Assembly (NCBI RefSeq): GCF_037031285.1
Contig: NZ_JAYEZO010000001.1
Coordinates: 930,001 to 994,000 of the forward strand
Reading direction: 5' to 3'
DNA length: 64,000 bases
DNA from: Halobellus sp. LT62
Lineage (GTDB): Archaea > Halobacteriota > Halobacteria > Halobacteriales > Haloferacaceae
In this document: piece after piece, positions 3 to 7,967 of the stretch
Numbering within the stretch: the first letter of the stretch is position 1
Layout: each line of letters starts with the position of its first letter
The notes under the pieces: generated by a model
What the model saw: the letters and a program-made list of their open reading frames with translations, nothing else
Database searches by the model: none
What the model was told of the DNA's origin: nothing
Made by a program: the position numbers and the translations under genes

Positions 3-1517
3 ATCGAGAAGCTCGTCGACAGATACGACGAGCGTCGGGAGAAGATCAGACAGGGGTTCTTCGTCTACGTGGAGACCCACGGGCTCGAACATATGGTCGA
101 TGCGATCGAGGACGCGGTCACCGCCGTATCGGCCGCCGCGACGGAACGCGAGACGGTCCGCGACGAACTCCGGACGGATCTCAGCGAGCTGTCGTCGGAG
201 CTGGCGTCGTCGTACGATCAGCACAACAGACAGTTCCAGCGCGAGGCTCGGCAATTGGAGCAGCAGTTGGCGAGTCCGACGGCCGACGACGACTCCGTCG
301 CGGCGCAGCTCGAACAGATCCGTGCCGAGCGTGCGGAGGTCTCTCAAGCCGAATCGAGAGCGCTCGAGCGTCTCGATGCGCAAATCGAGCGGACGAACGA
401 ACTCGAGACGCGCCTCGAACAGCAGGTCTCCGAGCTCGAAGCCGTCAGAGAAGAGACCGCCAATGCGGACCGCGAGGCCGCTCGGAACGAAGCGACTGAA
501 CTCGTCGAGTCCGAGATCGAGAACCTTCACGAGGAGCAGACGACGATCAGGACGGAACTCGAACGACTGGAGACGAAGCGGGGACAGATCGAGTTACACA
601 GCGACCGCCTCGACGACCGCGAGGCGGAGTTCGCCGCACAAATCGAGTCGACGGACGCCCCCGTCGACACGGACGCCGGCGCTGGGGTGACGGGAGACGA
701 GCTCGTCACCGCGACGATCGCCCGGCTCCTCGAACTCGATTACCTCGGGCGCTTCGATACGGCGATGCACGAACTGACGACGCTAAACACCGCCGACGGG
801 CCGTTCGACGTCCCGGAGGGCTACTGGGACGGGCGCAGTCAACGGACCAGCGACCGCCCGAAGCTGAACGACCTCCTGCTGGCGGGCGAAGAGCCCAGCG
901 ACTACCCGACGAATCAGACCGCCCGCTACGAGATCACCGATTCGAAGTACTTCGGCCTCGGCGCGGAGACCCGGATGGTGGTCGAGGCGATGGTCTTCGC
1001 GCACTTGGACGCGTACGCGACCAACGAGTTCGACACGCAACCGGCAGACCTCGACGACCTCCTGTCGCTGGTCAACGACGCGGTTTATGAGGCCGAAAAC
1101 GGCGATTACACCTACCTGCTCGCCATCGCGTCACCGACCGGATGGACGGATCGAGTTCGCCGGCAAATCGCGGCCGACGACCTCGCACGGACCCACTACA
1201 GCCGACAGGTGAGCGTCTGCCTCGTCGATCTCCAGTCGGGAGAGCTCATCTACGACGGCTCCGACCCGTTGGTGAGCGAAAACGCCGACATCTTCGAGCC
1301 CGCGATCGACGCCGAGCGGATCGACGCCTGCGAGCGCCTGATCCGCGAGAAGTACCTCGATGACGTGACGTGCGAGAGCGTTCTCCTCGAAGAACTGCTC
1401 GCAGATCACGGAATCGACTCTCACGTGGTCAAACGGGCGTTCAACAGGCTCGAAACCGAGGGCGAGGGCGAACAGCTCTACGTCGACGACGTCGGCCTCG
1501 CGCTCTATCTCGAGTAG
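3..1517 (+). CDS. Coiled-coil protein with C-terminal globular and winged-helix-like region (5' partial)
   Basis: The frame is open to the left window edge: codons before the GTG at 69 read as protein (IEKLVDRYDERREKIRQGFF), so the gene probably begins outside the window and 69 is not a convincing start. About 190 residues of heptad-rich, Glu/Arg-rich coiled coil follow, then a linker and a globular region of about 270 residues. Its middle has alternating hydrophobic strands (TYLLAIASPTGW, VSVCLVDLQSGELIYDG). The last 60 residues look like a winged helix (LLEELLADHGIDSHVVKRAFNRL). No signal peptide or membrane segment is seen, so it is probably cytoplasmic. I do not recognise the family. The middle region could be a nuclease-like fold, but no catalytic motif is clear. 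It is co-oriented with the kinase cassette that starts at 1662, which has its own promoter. Confidence 0.75.
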   Translation: MEKLVDRYDERREKIRQGFFVYVETHGLEHMVDAIEDAVTAVSAAATERETVRDELRTDLSELSSELASSYDQHNRQFQREARQLEQQLASPTADDDSVAAQLEQIRAERAEVSQAESRALERLDAQIERTNELETRLEQQVSELEAVREETANADREAARNEATELVESEIENLHEEQTTIRTELERLETKRGQIELHSDRLDDREAEFAAQIESTDAPVDTDAGAGVTGDELVTATIARLLELDYLGRFDTAMHELTTLNTADGPFDVPEGYWDGRSQRTSDRPKLNDLLLAGEEPSDYPTNQTARYEITDSKYFGLGAETRMVVEAMVFAHLDAYATNEFDTQPADLDDLLSLVNDAVYEAENGDYTYLLAIASPTGWTDRVRRQIAADDLARTHYSRQVSVCLVDLQSGELIYDGSDPLVSENADIFEPAIDAERIDACERLIREKYLDDVTCESVLLEELLADHGIDSHVVKRAFNRLETEGEGEQLYVDDVGLALYLE

Positions 1518-1661: not shown

Positions 1662-2459
1662 ATGGGAACTGCCGAAGAGCAGGTTGGCGGCATCGGGCTT
1701 CGTCCGCCGGGTATCAGGCGGCACCACGTTTGGTTCGCGATTTCTTTCGGAGCCGGGGCGGCGATTCTGCCGCCGACCGGTGCACAGACTATCGCGGGAT
1801 GGGTCGGCGGCGTGGTCGGTTCGTTCGTCGCCGCAATTCTCATCCTCGTGGTGTCCCTCTTCGCCGTTCGCTCGCTCGACGAGTGGCGGCCACCGACTGA
1901 GTCGCGCGAAGGTGTCCCCGACACGCACGTCATCAAAGCCGTGTTCCTCCTGATCTGTGTGCAGTTGTTCGTGTTCGGCACGCAGATTTCGGTTGATTTG
2001 GGCCCCCGAGCGATCGTCTATCTGTTGGCACCGCTGAACGTTCTGGTGAGCGGGACGATTCTGTGGGATATGTACTCGCTTTCCGGTCAGGGAATCGAGT
2101 GGGATTCGACCGATTACGGATACGCCGCGCTGGCGCTGCTCGTCGGGTTCGCCGGCGGATTCGGCTACTGGTACCGTCGGGGACGGGCGCGATCGGCGTG
2201 GTTCGACGCCCGCGAGTCGGAAACGGAGGCCGACGGTGATGACGCCGAGGCCGAGACCGGAGACGTGTCCGAGGGGACTGATGAGGTGACCGCTTCGGCG
2301 GCGTCGGAGGCCGAATCCGCCAGCGGCGAGTCCACCGAGACGTCGACGGAACAGCCCGACGCCGCGTCCGGCCGAGACGAAGCGAGCGCGACGGAGCGGA
2401 GCGATCCCACCACCGCGTCGGCGGAGCAGGACGACACGGACGTAGATGATCGAGAGTGA
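1662..2459 (+). CDS. Membrane protein with long acidic C-terminal tail
   Basis: A 265-residue protein. Hydrophobic segments lie near residues 22-36, 40-66, 88-112, 115-135 and 148-165, giving about four or five membrane spans. The last 100 residues are a low-complexity Glu/Asp/Ser/Thr/Ala tail, very likely disordered and typical of haloarchaeal surface or cytoplasmic extensions. It has its own TATA box and is followed after 37 nt by the propeller-pseudokinase gene, so it is probably the first gene of a three-gene operon. I do not recognise the family. Its place suggests a membrane partner of the two receptor-like kinases, but that is inference only. Confidence 0.7.
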   Translation: MGTAEEQVGGIGLRPPGIRRHHVWFAISFGAGAAILPPTGAQTIAGWVGGVVGSFVAAILILVVSLFAVRSLDEWRPPTESREGVPDTHVIKAVFLLICVQLFVFGTQISVDLGPRAIVYLLAPLNVLVSGTILWDMYSLSGQGIEWDSTDYGYAALALLVGFAGGFGYWYRRGRARSAWFDARESETEADGDDAEAETGDVSEGTDEVTASAASEAESASGESTETSTEQPDAASGRDEASATERSDPTTASAEQDDTDVDDRE

Positions 2460-2496
2460 GGCGTCGATGCCGGCGCGACGGAGTCGATAGTCACCG

Positions 2497-4878
2497 ATGG
2501 ATCGGGTAACTCGCCGCTGGACACTCGGTTCGCTCGGAGCGCTTCTCACCGCCCCGCTGTTCGGTTCGACGAGTGTCGACGCGCAGGCGGATTCCGTGTG
2601 GCCGATGTTCGGCTACGATCCCCAGAACACCTCGAGCAGTCCGTCGGTCGGACCGAAACGAGCGGTGTCTGAGACGTGGGCGCTCGAAGCTGACGACGCC
2701 GTCCAGTCGGCCGCGACCGTTACCGAAGACGTGGTGTACGTCGGGAGCGACGATGGGGGCCTCTACGCAATCGACCGCTCGGACGGGACCGAGCAGTGGG
2801 TCTTTCGGACGGACGGGAGCGTCTCCGGCGCGCCGGCGGCCGTCGACGGAACCGTCTACGTCGGCAGTACGGACGCCACGTTGTACGCGCTCGACACGGC
2901 GGCGCGGGAGACGCGGTGGACGTACGAGACCGGTGGCGGGATCGAGGCCGCACCGACCGTCACCGACGGCACGGTCTACGTCGGGAGCGACGACAACAGC
3001 CTCCACGCTGTCGATATCGACGATGGAACCGCTATCTGGACGTTCGAGACGGGCGGAATCATCACCTCGACGCCGGCGGTCGCCGACGGCACGGTCTACG
3101 TCGGGAGCGCCGACGGAAGCGTATACGCCGTCGACGCCACGTCGGGTACCGAACGGTGGTCGTACGCGACTGACAACGGCGTGAACTCGTCGCCGGCCGT
3201 CGCTGCGGGGACGGTGTACGTTAGCAGCAGTGACGGCCACCTGTACGCGCTCGACGCGGCGACCGGAGAACGGAGTTGGCGGTTCCCGCTCGAAGGGCTC
3301 GGCGGGACCTCGCCTGCGGTCGCCGACGGCGCGGTGTACGTGACTGAGGGAGTTCAAGGGACGCGGATCCACGCGCTCGATGCCGATACCGGCGAACGGC
3401 GCTGGTCGGGTGAGACCGGGGCGAGCGTGCGCTCCTCGCCGGCGGTCGCCGACGGCGTCGTCTACGTCACGAGTACGGACAGCTACGTGTACGCCATCGA
3501 GACGACCGAGGGCGACCTCCTCTGGCGACTCTCTCCGGGAGACTCGATCACCGCGTCCCCGACGGTCGTCGATGACACGGTCTACGTCGGGAGCACGGAC
3601 GGGAGCCTCTACGCGTTGCGTGGCACCACCACCTCTCCGGATCCGACGGCGACAGCCGCTTCCACGCCGACGGCGACGACCCGGGCTCTCGGCCCGTCGG
3701 GCGAGACGGGCGATGGCGGCTTCCCGCTCCTCCCGACCGCACTCGGCGCTGCGGGCTTGGGTGGGGGCGGCCTCTGGTGGTACCGCGCACGTTCCGATCC
3801 CGGGGGGAGTGAGGGCGGCGGGGCCGAAGAGCCCGCCGTCTCACCCGACACAGGCGGTGGCGAGTCACCGGATCCGAGCCCCGGACCGAACGACCCTCGT
3901 GCCCGTGACCGCGGCGAGGCGGACGGTGCGACTGAGAACGGACCCGCCACTCCCGATCCGCCGATGTCGCCCGCCGATCGAACTGCGGAATCGGGCGGTG
4001 AGGTGTCCGATCCCGGGTCGGTGTCGATCGACGGGGAGCGCCGCGAACCCGACCGAATTCTGGCCGTTCCCAAGGCGTCGTTCGCCTACGACGACTTCGT
4101 ATCGGAGACGCAGATCAGCGAGCGCGACACCGGAACGATAACGCGGGCGACAGTCGAGACCGCTAGCGGCCCGTTGACGGTCGCGGTCGCGAGACCACGG
4201 CTCACCGGAACGGTCGGGGCCGACGAGCTCGACAGGCTTCTCACCGAGGCCGAGACGTGGCAGAAGCTCGACGACCACGACCACATTGTCACCGTGATCG
4301 CGTACGGGGGCCAACCCCTGCCGTGGATCGCGATGGAGTACATGGACGGTGGCGACCTGAGTGACCGCACCGACGACATCGGCCTCCTCCAAGCCACTTG
4401 GACCGCGATTTCGGTTATCAACGCGGTCTACCACGCTCATCGAAGAGGAGTCCATCACCTGCATCTGAAGCCCGGCAACGTGCTCTTCCAGTCGACGGAG
4501 GGCTCTTGGGACGTTCCGAAAGTCTCCGATTGGTGGCGCGGATCGGAAACCGCCCGCGACGTCACGGGGCCGGCGCTTCGGTACGCCGCGCCGGAGCAGA
4601 TCGACGACGCGTACGGCCCGCTCGACGATCTCACGGATGTCTATCAGGTCGGGGCGGTGTTGTACGAGCTGTTCACCGGGCGGCCGCCGTTCGACGAGAC
4701 CGTCGAAAATCGAGCGAGAGCGAGTATCGAAGCCGAGCCGAACCCGCCGAGTGACGTCGCAGACGTGCCCGCAGCGCTCGACGACATCCTCCTGACGGCG
4801 CTCGCCACAGAGAAAGCCGATCGCTACGACTCGCTGGTCTACCTGCGAGACGCGCTCGTGGACCTCTACGAACAATGA
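2497..4878 (+). CDS. PQQ-type beta-propeller / membrane / pseudokinase fusion
   Basis: A 793-residue receptor-like protein. The N-terminus has a twin-arginine-like signal (RRWTLGSLGALL). Residues about 35-370 hold eight PQQ-type propeller blades (repeats of TVYVGSxDGxLYALD). A membrane segment follows near residue 410, then a Pro/Gly/Asp-rich linker and a Ser/Thr-kinase-like domain from about 525 to the end. Three catalytic elements are altered: the glycine loop reads ISERDTGTITRA, the VAIK lysine is Ala565 (VAVARPR), and the HRD aspartate is His656 (HLHLKPGN). DFG reads DWW, with D678 kept. The APE motif and the C-lobe remain (YAAPEQID). It is therefore predicted to be a catalytically dead sensor or scaffold, with the propeller outside and the kinase-like domain inside. 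It overlaps the next gene, an intact paralogue, by 4 nt (ATGA). Confidence 0.88.
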   Translation: MDRVTRRWTLGSLGALLTAPLFGSTSVDAQADSVWPMFGYDPQNTSSSPSVGPKRAVSETWALEADDAVQSAATVTEDVVYVGSDDGGLYAIDRSDGTEQWVFRTDGSVSGAPAAVDGTVYVGSTDATLYALDTAARETRWTYETGGGIEAAPTVTDGTVYVGSDDNSLHAVDIDDGTAIWTFETGGIITSTPAVADGTVYVGSADGSVYAVDATSGTERWSYATDNGVNSSPAVAAGTVYVSSSDGHLYALDAATGERSWRFPLEGLGGTSPAVADGAVYVTEGVQGTRIHALDADTGERRWSGETGASVRSSPAVADGVVYVTSTDSYVYAIETTEGDLLWRLSPGDSITASPTVVDDTVYVGSTDGSLYALRGTTTSPDPTATAASTPTATTRALGPSGETGDGGFPLLPTALGAAGLGGGGLWWYRARSDPGGSEGGGAEEPAVSPDTGGGESPDPSPGPNDPRARDRGEADGATENGPATPDPPMSPADRTAESGGEVSDPGSVSIDGERREPDRILAVPKASFAYDDFVSETQISERDTGTITRATVETASGPLTVAVARPRLTGTVGADELDRLLTEAETWQKLDDHDHIVTVIAYGGQPLPWIAMEYMDGGDLSDRTDDIGLLQATWTAISVINAVYHAHRRGVHHLHLKPGNVLFQSTEGSWDVPKVSDWWRGSETARDVTGPALRYAAPEQIDDAYGPLDDLTDVYQVGAVLYELFTGRPPFDETVENRARASIEAEPNPPSDVADVPAALDDILLTALATEKADRYDSLVYLRDALVDLYEQ

Positions 4879-7154
4879 ATGGCAACGACGATCCCTCCGT
4901 GTCCCGACGGCGGCTGCTGCAGGTGCTCGGCGGCGCGAGCGTCGCGGGAGCCGGCGGCGGGGCCGTCACCACCGCGTCGGCGCAGGCTGACTCAGTGTCG
5001 TGGCGGAAGTTCCGCGGGGACACCAACAACACCGGATTCGCGTCCGCACAGACCGGTCCGACGGAGAACCCCGAACTCGCTTGGTCGGTTGAGACGGCCG
5101 TCGGCGTTCCTTCATCGCCGACTGTCGTCGACGACACGGTCTACGTCGGGAGCGGCGACGCAAACGTGTACGCGCTCTCGACGGACGACGGGTCGGTACG
5201 ATGGACCCACGAGACGGGTGCGGCGGTCGCCTCCTCCCCCCTCGTCGTCGACGGAACGGTCTACGTCGGGAGCGGCGACGCAAACGTGTACGCGCTCTCG
5301 GCGGACGACGGGAGCGAACGCTGGCGGTACGAGACCGGAGAGGGTGTCTTCGCGTCCCCGACGATCGCTGACGACACGGTCGTCGTGGCCAGCCGCGATC
5401 AGCGCGTGTACGGCTTGTCGACCGATGACGGGACCGAGCTATGGCGCTTCGAGACCGACGGCGAGATCTGGTCGTCGCCGGCGATCGACGGCGGCACGGT
5501 CTACGTCGGGAGTCGCGATCAGTACGTGTACGCGCTCTCGACGGACGACGGGAGCGAACACTGGCGGTACGAGACCGGCGATTGGATCGAGTCGTCGCCG
5601 GCCGTCAGCGGTGACACGCTCTACGTCGGGAGCCTCGACGGTTCGGTCTACGCGCTCTCGTCCGCTGACGGTTCCGAGAAGTGGCGCGCGGGGCTCTCTA
5701 CTGTGATCGCGTCCTCGCCGGCGGTCGACGGCGACACGGTCTACGTCGGGAGTCGCGATCAGCACGTGTACGCGCTCTCGATGATCGACGGGACCGAGCT
5801 GTGGAGCTTCGAGACCGACGGTCGCGTGTTCTCGTCGCCGGCGGTCGCCGACGGCGTCGTCTACGTCGGCAGCGCGGACACCACGGTCTACGCGGTATCG
5901 GCGGACGACGGGAGCGAAGTGTGGTCCTACGACACTGAGGGAGAGATATTCTCGTCGCCAGCGATCGACAATGGAACGCTGTACGTGGGTAGTAACGACG
6001 CGGCGGTGTACGCTCTCGCCGATCCGGAATCCGCCGGAAACGACGGGGTGACTGGGCTGATGGTCCCAGCAGCCCTCGGTGCGCTGGGCCTCGGCAGCGC
6101 GGGACTCATCTGGACGTACCGGCGCGGCGGCGACGAGAGCGAACCGGGAACCGGTGGGTCCGGATCAGGTCCGCCAGCGGCTGGCGCGACCGAGGCGACG
6201 TCCGCGGCGAGCGGGCGAGCCGCCCCCGCGCCGTCAACCGACCGCTCGTCGACGGACTGGCTGGCATCGGGCACGACGCCCAGCGTCGAAGAGCGGATGG
6301 TCCCCACGGACATTCCCACGGCACCGCCGGTCAGCGTCGAGTACGACGCGTTCACAGACGAGACGTCGATCGGCAGCGGTGGCAACGCGGACGTCACGCG
6401 CGCGACGCTCGATACCGGAGACGGTTCGGTCTCGATTGCCATTAAACGGCCGCGGCTCTCGGGGACGATCGACGCCGGCACGATCGATCAGATTCTCACT
6501 GAGGCCGAGACGTGGCAGAAACTCGACGACCACGACCACATCGTCGACGTGATCGACTACGGGGCGCAACCGCTGCCGTGGATCGCGATGGAGTACATGG
6601 ACGGCGGCGACCTCGGCGATCGCATCAGCGAGATCGAAATCGAACAGGCCATCTGGACGGCATTGGCCGTTACAAACGGCGTCCACCACGCGCACCGACA
6701 GGGTATCGCCCATCTGGATCTGAAACCGGAGAACATCCTCTTCAGATCGGTCGAGGATGCATGGGACGTGCCGAAAGTCTCCGACTGGGGCCTCGCGAAG
6801 GAACTGCTCAATCACTCGAAGAGTATCGAGGGGTTCTCTCCGCAGTACGCCGCACCCGAACAGTTCAGCGACGAGTACGGAGCCGCCGACGACATCACTG
6901 ACGTCTACCAGTTGGGCACGGTGTTCTACGAGCTGTTCACCGGTCGGTTGCCTTTCGAGGGATCGCCCGCCCGGGTGATGCAGGCCGTGTTGAACGAGGA
7001 CCCGGCACCGCCGAGCGACTACGTCGATGTCCCCCCGGCGCTGGACGATATCCTCCTGACGGCGCTCGAAAAGCGGAAAGACGACCGATACGATTCGCTG
7101 GTGTATCTTCGCGACGCGCTCGAGGAACTCTACGACGGCCACGTGAACAAGTAA
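4875..7154 (+). CDS. PQQ-type beta-propeller / membrane / Ser-Thr protein kinase fusion
   Basis: A 759-residue paralogue of the preceding gene. It has a twin-arginine signal (SRRRLLQVLGG), eight propeller blades (about residues 45-385), a membrane segment near 395-415, a linker, and a Hanks-type kinase domain from about 490. The catalytic set is present: a glycine loop (IGSGGNADVTRA), Lys524 in AIKRPR, Asp615 in HLDLKPEN, Asp637 in a DWG version of DFG, and APE (YAAPEQF). The HRD arginine is replaced (HLD), as in non-RD kinases. The predicted topology is an extracellular propeller sensing a ligand or wall component and signalling to a cytoplasmic kinase. Translational coupling with the upstream pseudokinase (ATGA overlap) implies equimolar synthesis, possibly of a heteromeric receptor. 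The ligand and phosphorylation targets are unknown. Confidence 0.9.
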   Translation: MNGNDDPSVSRRRLLQVLGGASVAGAGGGAVTTASAQADSVSWRKFRGDTNNTGFASAQTGPTENPELAWSVETAVGVPSSPTVVDDTVYVGSGDANVYALSTDDGSVRWTHETGAAVASSPLVVDGTVYVGSGDANVYALSADDGSERWRYETGEGVFASPTIADDTVVVASRDQRVYGLSTDDGTELWRFETDGEIWSSPAIDGGTVYVGSRDQYVYALSTDDGSEHWRYETGDWIESSPAVSGDTLYVGSLDGSVYALSSADGSEKWRAGLSTVIASSPAVDGDTVYVGSRDQHVYALSMIDGTELWSFETDGRVFSSPAVADGVVYVGSADTTVYAVSADDGSEVWSYDTEGEIFSSPAIDNGTLYVGSNDAAVYALADPESAGNDGVTGLMVPAALGALGLGSAGLIWTYRRGGDESEPGTGGSGSGPPAAGATEATSAASGRAAPAPSTDRSSTDWLASGTTPSVEERMVPTDIPTAPPVSVEYDAFTDETSIGSGGNADVTRATLDTGDGSVSIAIKRPRLSGTIDAGTIDQILTEAETWQKLDDHDHIVDVIDYGAQPLPWIAMEYMDGGDLGDRISEIEIEQAIWTALAVTNGVHHAHRQGIAHLDLKPENILFRSVEDAWDVPKVSDWGLAKELLNHSKSIEGFSPQYAAPEQFSDEYGAADDITDVYQLGTVFYELFTGRLPFEGSPARVMQAVLNEDPAPPSDYVDVPPALDDILLTALEKRKDDRYDSLVYLRDALEELYDGHVNK

Positions 7155-7307: not shown

Positions 7308-7967
7308 CTACTGCAGTAGCAAGCCGTTTCTGAAGCCGTCGCGGGCGTCGTTGACGTCGCCCGTCTCTCCGGACTCGACGATCGTGTACGTCTGGACGGC
7401 TTTCCCGCCGTAGGACGTCTCGACTTCGCTCGTCGTCGTCAGGCCCTCCCAAGTGATGTCTCCGCGGCTGATCGCGGCCTGCATCGCAGACTGTCGGTCG
7501 TCGGCGTCGATGATGCGATCGATCGTTTCGCAGTCCGTCGTCGCCCGCAGAGTTGGGTCTGAGACGGCGTTGGGTTCGATCTGTTCGATCTGTGCGTTCT
7601 GGTTGACGACCACTGAGAACGTCGTCGTCGCGCCACCGGATTCGACGTTAATGTTCACGCGCTCGCCGACCATCGCGTTCCGAACCGAGTTCGGAATCCG
7701 ATCGGACGACTGCTGAATCCGGGTGTTCACCTGTTGGATTCCGACCTCGTTCAACCGCTGTGTGACCTCCGATTTACTCACGTCGAGACACGACAGCGCA
7801 GTGGACTCTGCGTCCTGTTGATATAGCTGCGAGAGCTCTATGTCTGTACTCACGGTTCCCTGTGCGGCGGCTGGTGCCGTGGCTGCGACTACGAGACAGC
7901 AAATGATGAACGTCGCCGCCAACGGGATTCTGTTGGGCCCTCCCGAAGACCCCCCTTCTGATTCCAT
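7308..7967 (-). CDS. Secreted or membrane-anchored protein, function unknown
   Basis: A 219-residue protein with a clear N-terminal hydrophobic signal or anchor (residues 17-35, ending in ATAPAAAQG, a plausible signal-peptidase site). The mature part is acidic, with two cysteines (SCLDVSK and TTDCETI) that could form a disulfide outside the cell. The segment around 135-180 (PTLRATTDCETIDRII..SAMQAAISRGDITWEG) faintly resembles the lipid-binding SCP2 fold, but I would not name it so without a profile search. It is transcribed alone from a strong TATA box (7991-8000) and divergent from the next small membrane protein. Confidence 0.75.
   Translation of the reverse strand: MESEGGSSGGPNRIPLAATFIICCLVVAATAPAAAQGTVSTDIELSQLYQQDAESTALSCLDVSKSEVTQRLNEVGIQQVNTRIQQSSDRIPNSVRNAMVGERVNINVESGGATTTFSVVVNQNAQIEQIEPNAVSDPTLRATTDCETIDRIIDADDRQSAMQAAISRGDITWEGLTTTSEVETSYGGKAVQTYTIVESGETGDVNDARDGFRNGLLLQ

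Follow-up and report, generated by a model that had tools for sequence, protein, structure and literature searches.

The question raised by this locus is why, of two neighbouring receptor-like kinases, one should have lost the residues needed for catalysis and the other kept them. The two genes lie in a stretch of Halobellus sp. LT62 DNA of 64,000 nucleotides, here called the window, and encode the proteins P0001 and P0002 (Table 1). The initial annotation had described them as a tandem pair in which each protein joins an eight-bladed propeller to a kinase domain, and this layout is borne out by the open reading frames, by Pfam, by an overlap of the P0001 TGA (4876-4878) with the P0002 ATG (4875-4877), and by the blades of an AlphaFold2 model. 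Both proteins match the PQQ_2/Beta-prop (BamB-type) and Pkinase families in Pfam, with scores for PF00069 (Pkinase) of 71.2 bits in P0001 and 117.1 bits in P0002 against a cut-off of 31.7, and by profile score and predicted fold both have the Hanks-type (eukaryotic-like) protein kinase fold. In the model of P0001, built on an alignment of 18 sequences, eight blades are predicted with pLDDT mostly above 90, residues 380-513 form a disordered linker, and the kinase fold is predicted to be complete, N-lobe sheet and alpha-C included. The best PDB match of the propeller is the designed eight-bladed Cake8 and the second is BamB. Models of PQQ dehydrogenases score far below their cut-off on the propellers of the pair (TIGR03075, 124.9 of 480); these scores, together with the structural match to BamB and designed propellers, suggest that the propeller is not of the PQQ-dependent quinoprotein type. 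A Tat signal and a membrane helix had also been assigned to both proteins. The membrane segment is weak in P0001 (best 19-mer Kyte-Doolittle mean 1.08, as compared with 1.71 in P0002), and the Tat signals, called from the motif and a hydrophobic stretch only, are putative.

Table 1. Features of the propeller-kinase pair, of its counterpart in Haloglomus irregulare (L042) and of the neighbouring locus (L091). Positions refer to the window unless a locus is named.
Feature	Position	Strand	Remarks
CC665, 3' part	3..1517	+	coiled-coil protein; gene start outside the window; layout like arCOG09748
TM265	1662..2459	+	multi-pass membrane protein
P0001	2497..4878	+	793 aa; Tat-like signal, propeller of eight blades, membrane segment (weak) and pseudokinase domain
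P0001 propeller	2641..3633	+	eight-bladed, PQQ/BamB-type, predicted extracellular; residues about 49-379; AlphaFold2, PDB match
P0001 pseudokinase domain	4087..4860	+	residues 531-788
A565 (GCG)	4189..4191	+	P0001; replaces the VAIK lysine
H656 (CAT)	4462..4464	+	P0001; replaces the catalytic-loop (HLD/HRD) aspartate
D678-W-W680	4528..4536	+	P0001; DWG changed to DWW by loss of Gly; Asp retained
ATGA, P0001 stop/P0002 start	4875..4878	+	overlap; suggests translational coupling
P0002	4875..7154	+	759 aa; layout as P0001, catalytic residues all kept
P0002 kinase domain	6342..7124	+	residues 490-750; K524, D615, D637
S219	7308..7967	-	secreted or anchored protein, with a homologue beside H1/H2 in Haloglomus
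H1, propeller kinase	L042 750-3011		catalytic residues all present
H2, propeller kinase	L042 3127-5457		dead
S219 homologue	L042 5520-6131		follows H1/H2
TM265 homologue	L042 6171-6890		follows H1/H2
STK	L091 5425-7293		
Phosphatase	L091 7297-8097		
Vps4-like AAA ATPase	L091 8841-10019		
ESCRT-III-like, by layout and position	L091 10038-10721		
arCOG09748-type, by layout and position	L091 11521-13518		

For the comparison of motifs, about 160 related kinase domains were gathered from haloarchaeal genomes, and the consensus of this family is GxGG, K, E, HLD.K..N and DWG. At the same motifs P0001 has S.RD, A565, E584, HLH.K..N and DWW, whereas P0002 has K524, D615, D637 and the glycine loop, with no catalytic residue lost. 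The residues named in the initial annotation as lost from P0001 (the glycine loop, the VAIK lysine and the catalytic-loop aspartate) and as kept in P0002 are correct, numbers included. Its reading of a DFG motif turned into DWW was right about the letters but has to be narrowed: because the norm in this family is DWG and HLD rather than DFG and HRD, the glycine alone is lost and Asp678 is kept. Three residues mark a Hanks kinase as active, namely the Lys of VAIK, the Asp of the catalytic loop and the DFG-type Asp; P0001 lacks the first two and P0002 has all three. Judged from its sequence, P0001 is a pseudokinase, which is predicted to keep the kinase fold and is missing essential catalytic residues. 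No lysine occurs anywhere in its residues 530-589, therefore a WNK-like substitution within the N-lobe was rejected; a local frameshift artefact was rejected as well, the in-frame homology to P0002 being unbroken through the lost sites. One could suppose that P0001 still binds nucleotide or carries out some unusual catalysis, as it retains the metal-binding Asp678 and Asn661, the catalytic-loop lysine and the alpha-C Glu584. However, with an N-lobe sheet devoid of lysine, SERDTG in place of the glycine loop and the general base gone, we consider this improbable.

The losses in P0001 are not spread evenly over the domain. Across 62 active relatives, conservation reaches 95% or more at 58 kinase columns; P0001 keeps 48 of these and loses ten (in P0002 numbering G500, G502, G503, V507, K524, D615, G639, L640, L644 and L680), and given this degree of conservation the lost sites are not a matter of chance. 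Active family members lose between 0 and 7 of the 58 columns, mostly 0 or 1. Eight of the ten losses in P0001 fall within 14 nucleotide/catalytic columns, a set of our own choice (hypergeometric P=5.6e-5). This focus speaks against one alternative, namely that P0001 is a redundant copy with a kinase half in decay, its propeller perhaps still in use or the whole gene on its way to being lost. The same alternative draws support from the kinase tree, in which the branch leading to P0001 has about four times the length of that of P0002 (0.59 vs 0.15), as relaxation would also give, and from the distribution of this patchy accessory locus: no orthologue of P0001 was found in the 16 other genomes of the genus, and among all 17, the window's included, the kinase family is present in force in the window's genome only. 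Nevertheless, the P0001 reading frame runs through 793 codons without stops, and omega=1 is rejected on the P0001 branch (lnL -3679.1 with omega free and -3696.6 at omega 1; 2 delta lnL about 35). The branch model covered six kinase domains with saturated synonymous sites, and it excludes neutrality over the branch as a whole, recent relaxation lying outside its reach. Pairwise omega values for the propellers in the window, which were saturated and did not converge, were not used. Because the losses concentrate at catalytic sites and neutrality is rejected, we do not prefer plain decay and regard it as rather unlikely.

A second instance of the pair is found in another family. Haloglomus irregulare (Natronomonadaceae) carries the same four-gene module as the window, made up of two propeller kinases (H1 and H2), a secreted protein (S219) and a membrane protein (TM265); the two kinase genes have the same order in both genomes, and S219 and TM265 flank the pair in the window but both come after it in Haloglomus. 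In the propeller tree P0002 groups with H2 (support 99/96) and P0001 with H1 (89/95, short of full support), and the AU test on the propellers rejects the groupings P0001+P0002 (p=0.004), H1+H2 (p=0.004) and that of the two dead proteins, P0001+H2 (p=0.005). A two-residue insertion in one blade is common to P0001 and H1 and occurs in one other protein. As far as the residues tell, inactivation has been reciprocal: P0001 is dead and H1 intact, P0002 is intact and H2 dead. H2 has lost the glycine loop, its catalytic Asp is replaced by Gly, the catalytic-loop Lys by Thr and the alpha-C Glu by Gly, and it retains the VAIK Lys and DWG. Since the propeller orthologue H1 is intact, the pseudokinase state of P0001 is not an ancient, conserved one; the two families appear to have in common a pair of which one kinase is live.

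These observations modify what the initial annotation had proposed. A selected pseudokinase agrees with the catalytic focus of the losses, the predicted intact fold and the rejection of omega=1, but A565 and H656 are not conserved. The annotation had held that orthologues keeping the lysine and the aspartate would mean decay, so that the intact H1 counts on that side; the fact that a state with one dead kinase also arose in the orthologous module counts on the other. The orthologous pair, without which the receptor-pair idea was said to fail, does exist, and one of its kinases is active and the other dead, but the dead one is the orthologue of P0002. The idea of a receptor pair survives in modified form, with one partner apparently dead and its identity interchangeable.

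The full module was found in only two genomes. Among about 80 kinase loci fetched, TM265 has a single homologue, at the Haloglomus pair, and a search for further modules via TM265 in a sample of the order, in the same family and in four other families returned only one further locus (L182) and weak matches, with none in viral contigs. In L182 (2709-3947) homologues of S219 and TM265 stand side by side with no kinase nearby, which suggests that these two genes are perhaps a unit of their own.

Different lesions in P0001 and H2 favour independent inactivation. The alternative would be a single ancestral dead domain that was moved between neighbours by recombination, P0001 and H2 then being the same pseudokinase on swapped propellers. 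In kinase-domain trees P0001 pairs with P0002 (88; 83/86), which argues against such a swap, and H1 pairs weakly with H2. When the conserved tract from alpha-C to the hinge is removed, no alternative is rejected, P0001+H2 included (p=0.18), and the kinase domains do not resolve orthology; for this reason a converted ancestral dead domain retains some probability. Within the Haloglomus pair, residues 543-587 of H1 and 572-616 of H2 have 93-96% DNA identity, synonymous sites included, compared with about 57% overall; the tract spans about 45 codons, with identity at 16 of 18 fourfold sites, and at third positions identity between H1 and H2 is 0.77 against at most 0.59 to other sequences. This segment is likely the product of recent gene conversion, and it speaks for a swap. 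However, the lesions themselves are not those of one pseudokinase: in P0001 the changes are K to A, D to H and DWG to DWW, with the catalytic-loop Lys kept, whereas H2 keeps VAIK Lys and DWG intact and has D to G, K to T in the catalytic loop and E to G in alpha-C. We therefore consider a swapped domain improbable. The corresponding tract of P0001 and P0002 was examined for gene conversion too; its DNA identity is 87%, yet other family members reach 80-84%, so that it is better read as conserved sequence than as a product of conversion.

Dead kinases of this family occur elsewhere in haloarchaea. In Halorubrum-type genomes a propeller pseudokinase without catalytic residues, whose very divergent kinase domain gives a weak Pfam match, is conserved from species to species, at 85-91% identity and a domain omega of 0.07-0.10, and stands opposite a second dead kinase bearing Ig-like domains. 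This conservation indicates that haloarchaea do maintain propeller pseudokinases as a type of protein, although on a different branch from P0001. Such divergent dead pairs, one member with a propeller on the outside and one with CarboxypepD_reg/Ig-like repeats, lie at L163 3845-6487 and 7291-9315, at L164 3497-6148 and 6952-9138, and also in L165 and L166, with domain omega of about 0.07-0.14 across species. After the set had been thinned to 95 domains, three of four dead domains and 16 of 91 live ones stand beside another kinase (Fisher p=0.024, from few cases), and other tandem pairs exist in which both kinases are live. In one genome (G088) a single receptor chain of 1192 aa (L099 8411-11989) carries both kinds of kinase domain: it consists of a propeller, a PKD domain, an active kinase and a second kinase domain, which is dead (HLG..H). 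A genome of the Haloarculaceae group (G216, L137) has an active kinase followed by two degenerate kinases in tandem (1817-3994 and 4685-6700), one of which carries a propeller; the very degenerate kinase domain of this propeller protein was picked up only by a custom family profile, not by Pfam Pkinase. Elsewhere about a dozen kinases of the family lie within 47 kb of a single contig (L108-L110, G164:C5:427000-474000), one of them broken by stops.

Directly upstream of the window lie another active-type kinase, a PP2C phosphatase, a Vps4-like AAA ATPase, a small coiled-coil protein and CC665, whose gene extends into the window. The first four stand in a row at L091 5425-10721 (G000:C1:923424-928720); the ATPase is of the MIT-AAA type and the coiled coil resembles ESCRT-III. 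Pfam confirms the kinase, the PP2C and the AAA ATPase; the ESCRT-III and arCOG09748 assignments, which have no Pfam match, are by layout and position, the small K-rich/acidic coiled-coil protein occupying the place of ESCRT-III. CC665 recurs at haloarchaeal ESCRT/kinase loci, and the same gene set adjoins the kinase family in many haloarchaeal genera. By its layout the set corresponds to the haloarchaeal ESCRT loci for which PMC10936438 describes a kinase and a phosphatase, and from their position P0001 and P0002 may act on this machinery.

The explanation that we favour, with a probability of about one half, is a surface receptor of two halves in which one working kinase is enough and P0001 is the non-catalytic partner of P0002. 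The two genes would stem from an old tandem duplication, and their propellers would sense a ligand outside the cell or at the S-layer. A single working kinase would suffice for the pair, and which of the two is dead would be interchangeable. The kinase domain of P0001 would have become a fold-keeping pseudokinase, most likely the partner in a dimer that holds or allosterically switches the active kinase of P0002. The latter would phosphorylate cytoplasmic targets, plausibly those of the adjacent ESCRT locus (Vps4, the ESCRT-III-like protein, CC665), and these phosphates would be removed again by the PP2C encoded nearby. More tentatively, the pair may represent an archaeal receptor module, a heteromer with exactly one live kinase whose dead partner has switched between lineages and which is wired to the ESCRT locus. 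In effect the locus is an experiment of nature, one and the same receptor pair being present in two families with the apparently dead partner differing between them, and it makes the question of one versus two catalytic halves in receptor kinase pairs directly testable in a tractable group. It may also link Ser/Thr phosphorylation at the archaeal cell surface to the neighbouring ESCRT machinery.

In animals and plants, receptors that pair a kinase with a pseudokinase are well known; a full-text search limited to open-access papers found no description of such pairs in archaea. Bacterial pseudokinases with PQQ domains (ActPs1) and an active kinase with a PQQ-type propeller (RqkA) are already known. 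In RqkA the order of domains is the reverse of that in P0001 and P0002, with the kinase N-terminal. RqkA (DR2518) of Deinococcus radiodurans resembles the pair in being a Ser/Thr kinase with a PQQ-type propeller, and its kinase activity is reportedly stimulated by PQQ (PMC11007091); however, it is a single active protein with no partner pseudokinase. The ActPs1 proteins combine a pseudokinase and a PQQ_2 domain in one chain, but they are actinobacterial, the PQQ domain is C-terminal to the pseudokinase, and the portion of the paper considered here describes no active tandem partner (PMC12599244). In haloarchaea, the Ser/Thr kinases (STKs) of the ESCRT "main clade" loci (mBio 2024, PMC10936438) stand beside Vps4, ESCRT-III, a phosphatase and an arCOG09748-type protein with coiled-coil/wH architecture. 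Like the pair, which adjoins what appears to be such a locus, these are genes for membrane-associated Ser/Thr kinases in an ESCRT setting; they differ in their N-terminal membrane segment, Ig-like repeats and C-terminal PCI-like domain, and the text of that paper does not contain the word pseudokinase and describes no propeller-kinase pair. The plant receptors EFR and BAK1 have ectodomains unrelated to those of P0001 and P0002 and are not known to be adjacent tandem paralogues. They offer an analogy, and an analogy only, for the role proposed here for P0001: the kinase domain of EFR, in a non-catalytic capacity, allosterically activates its partner BAK1 (PMC11259431).
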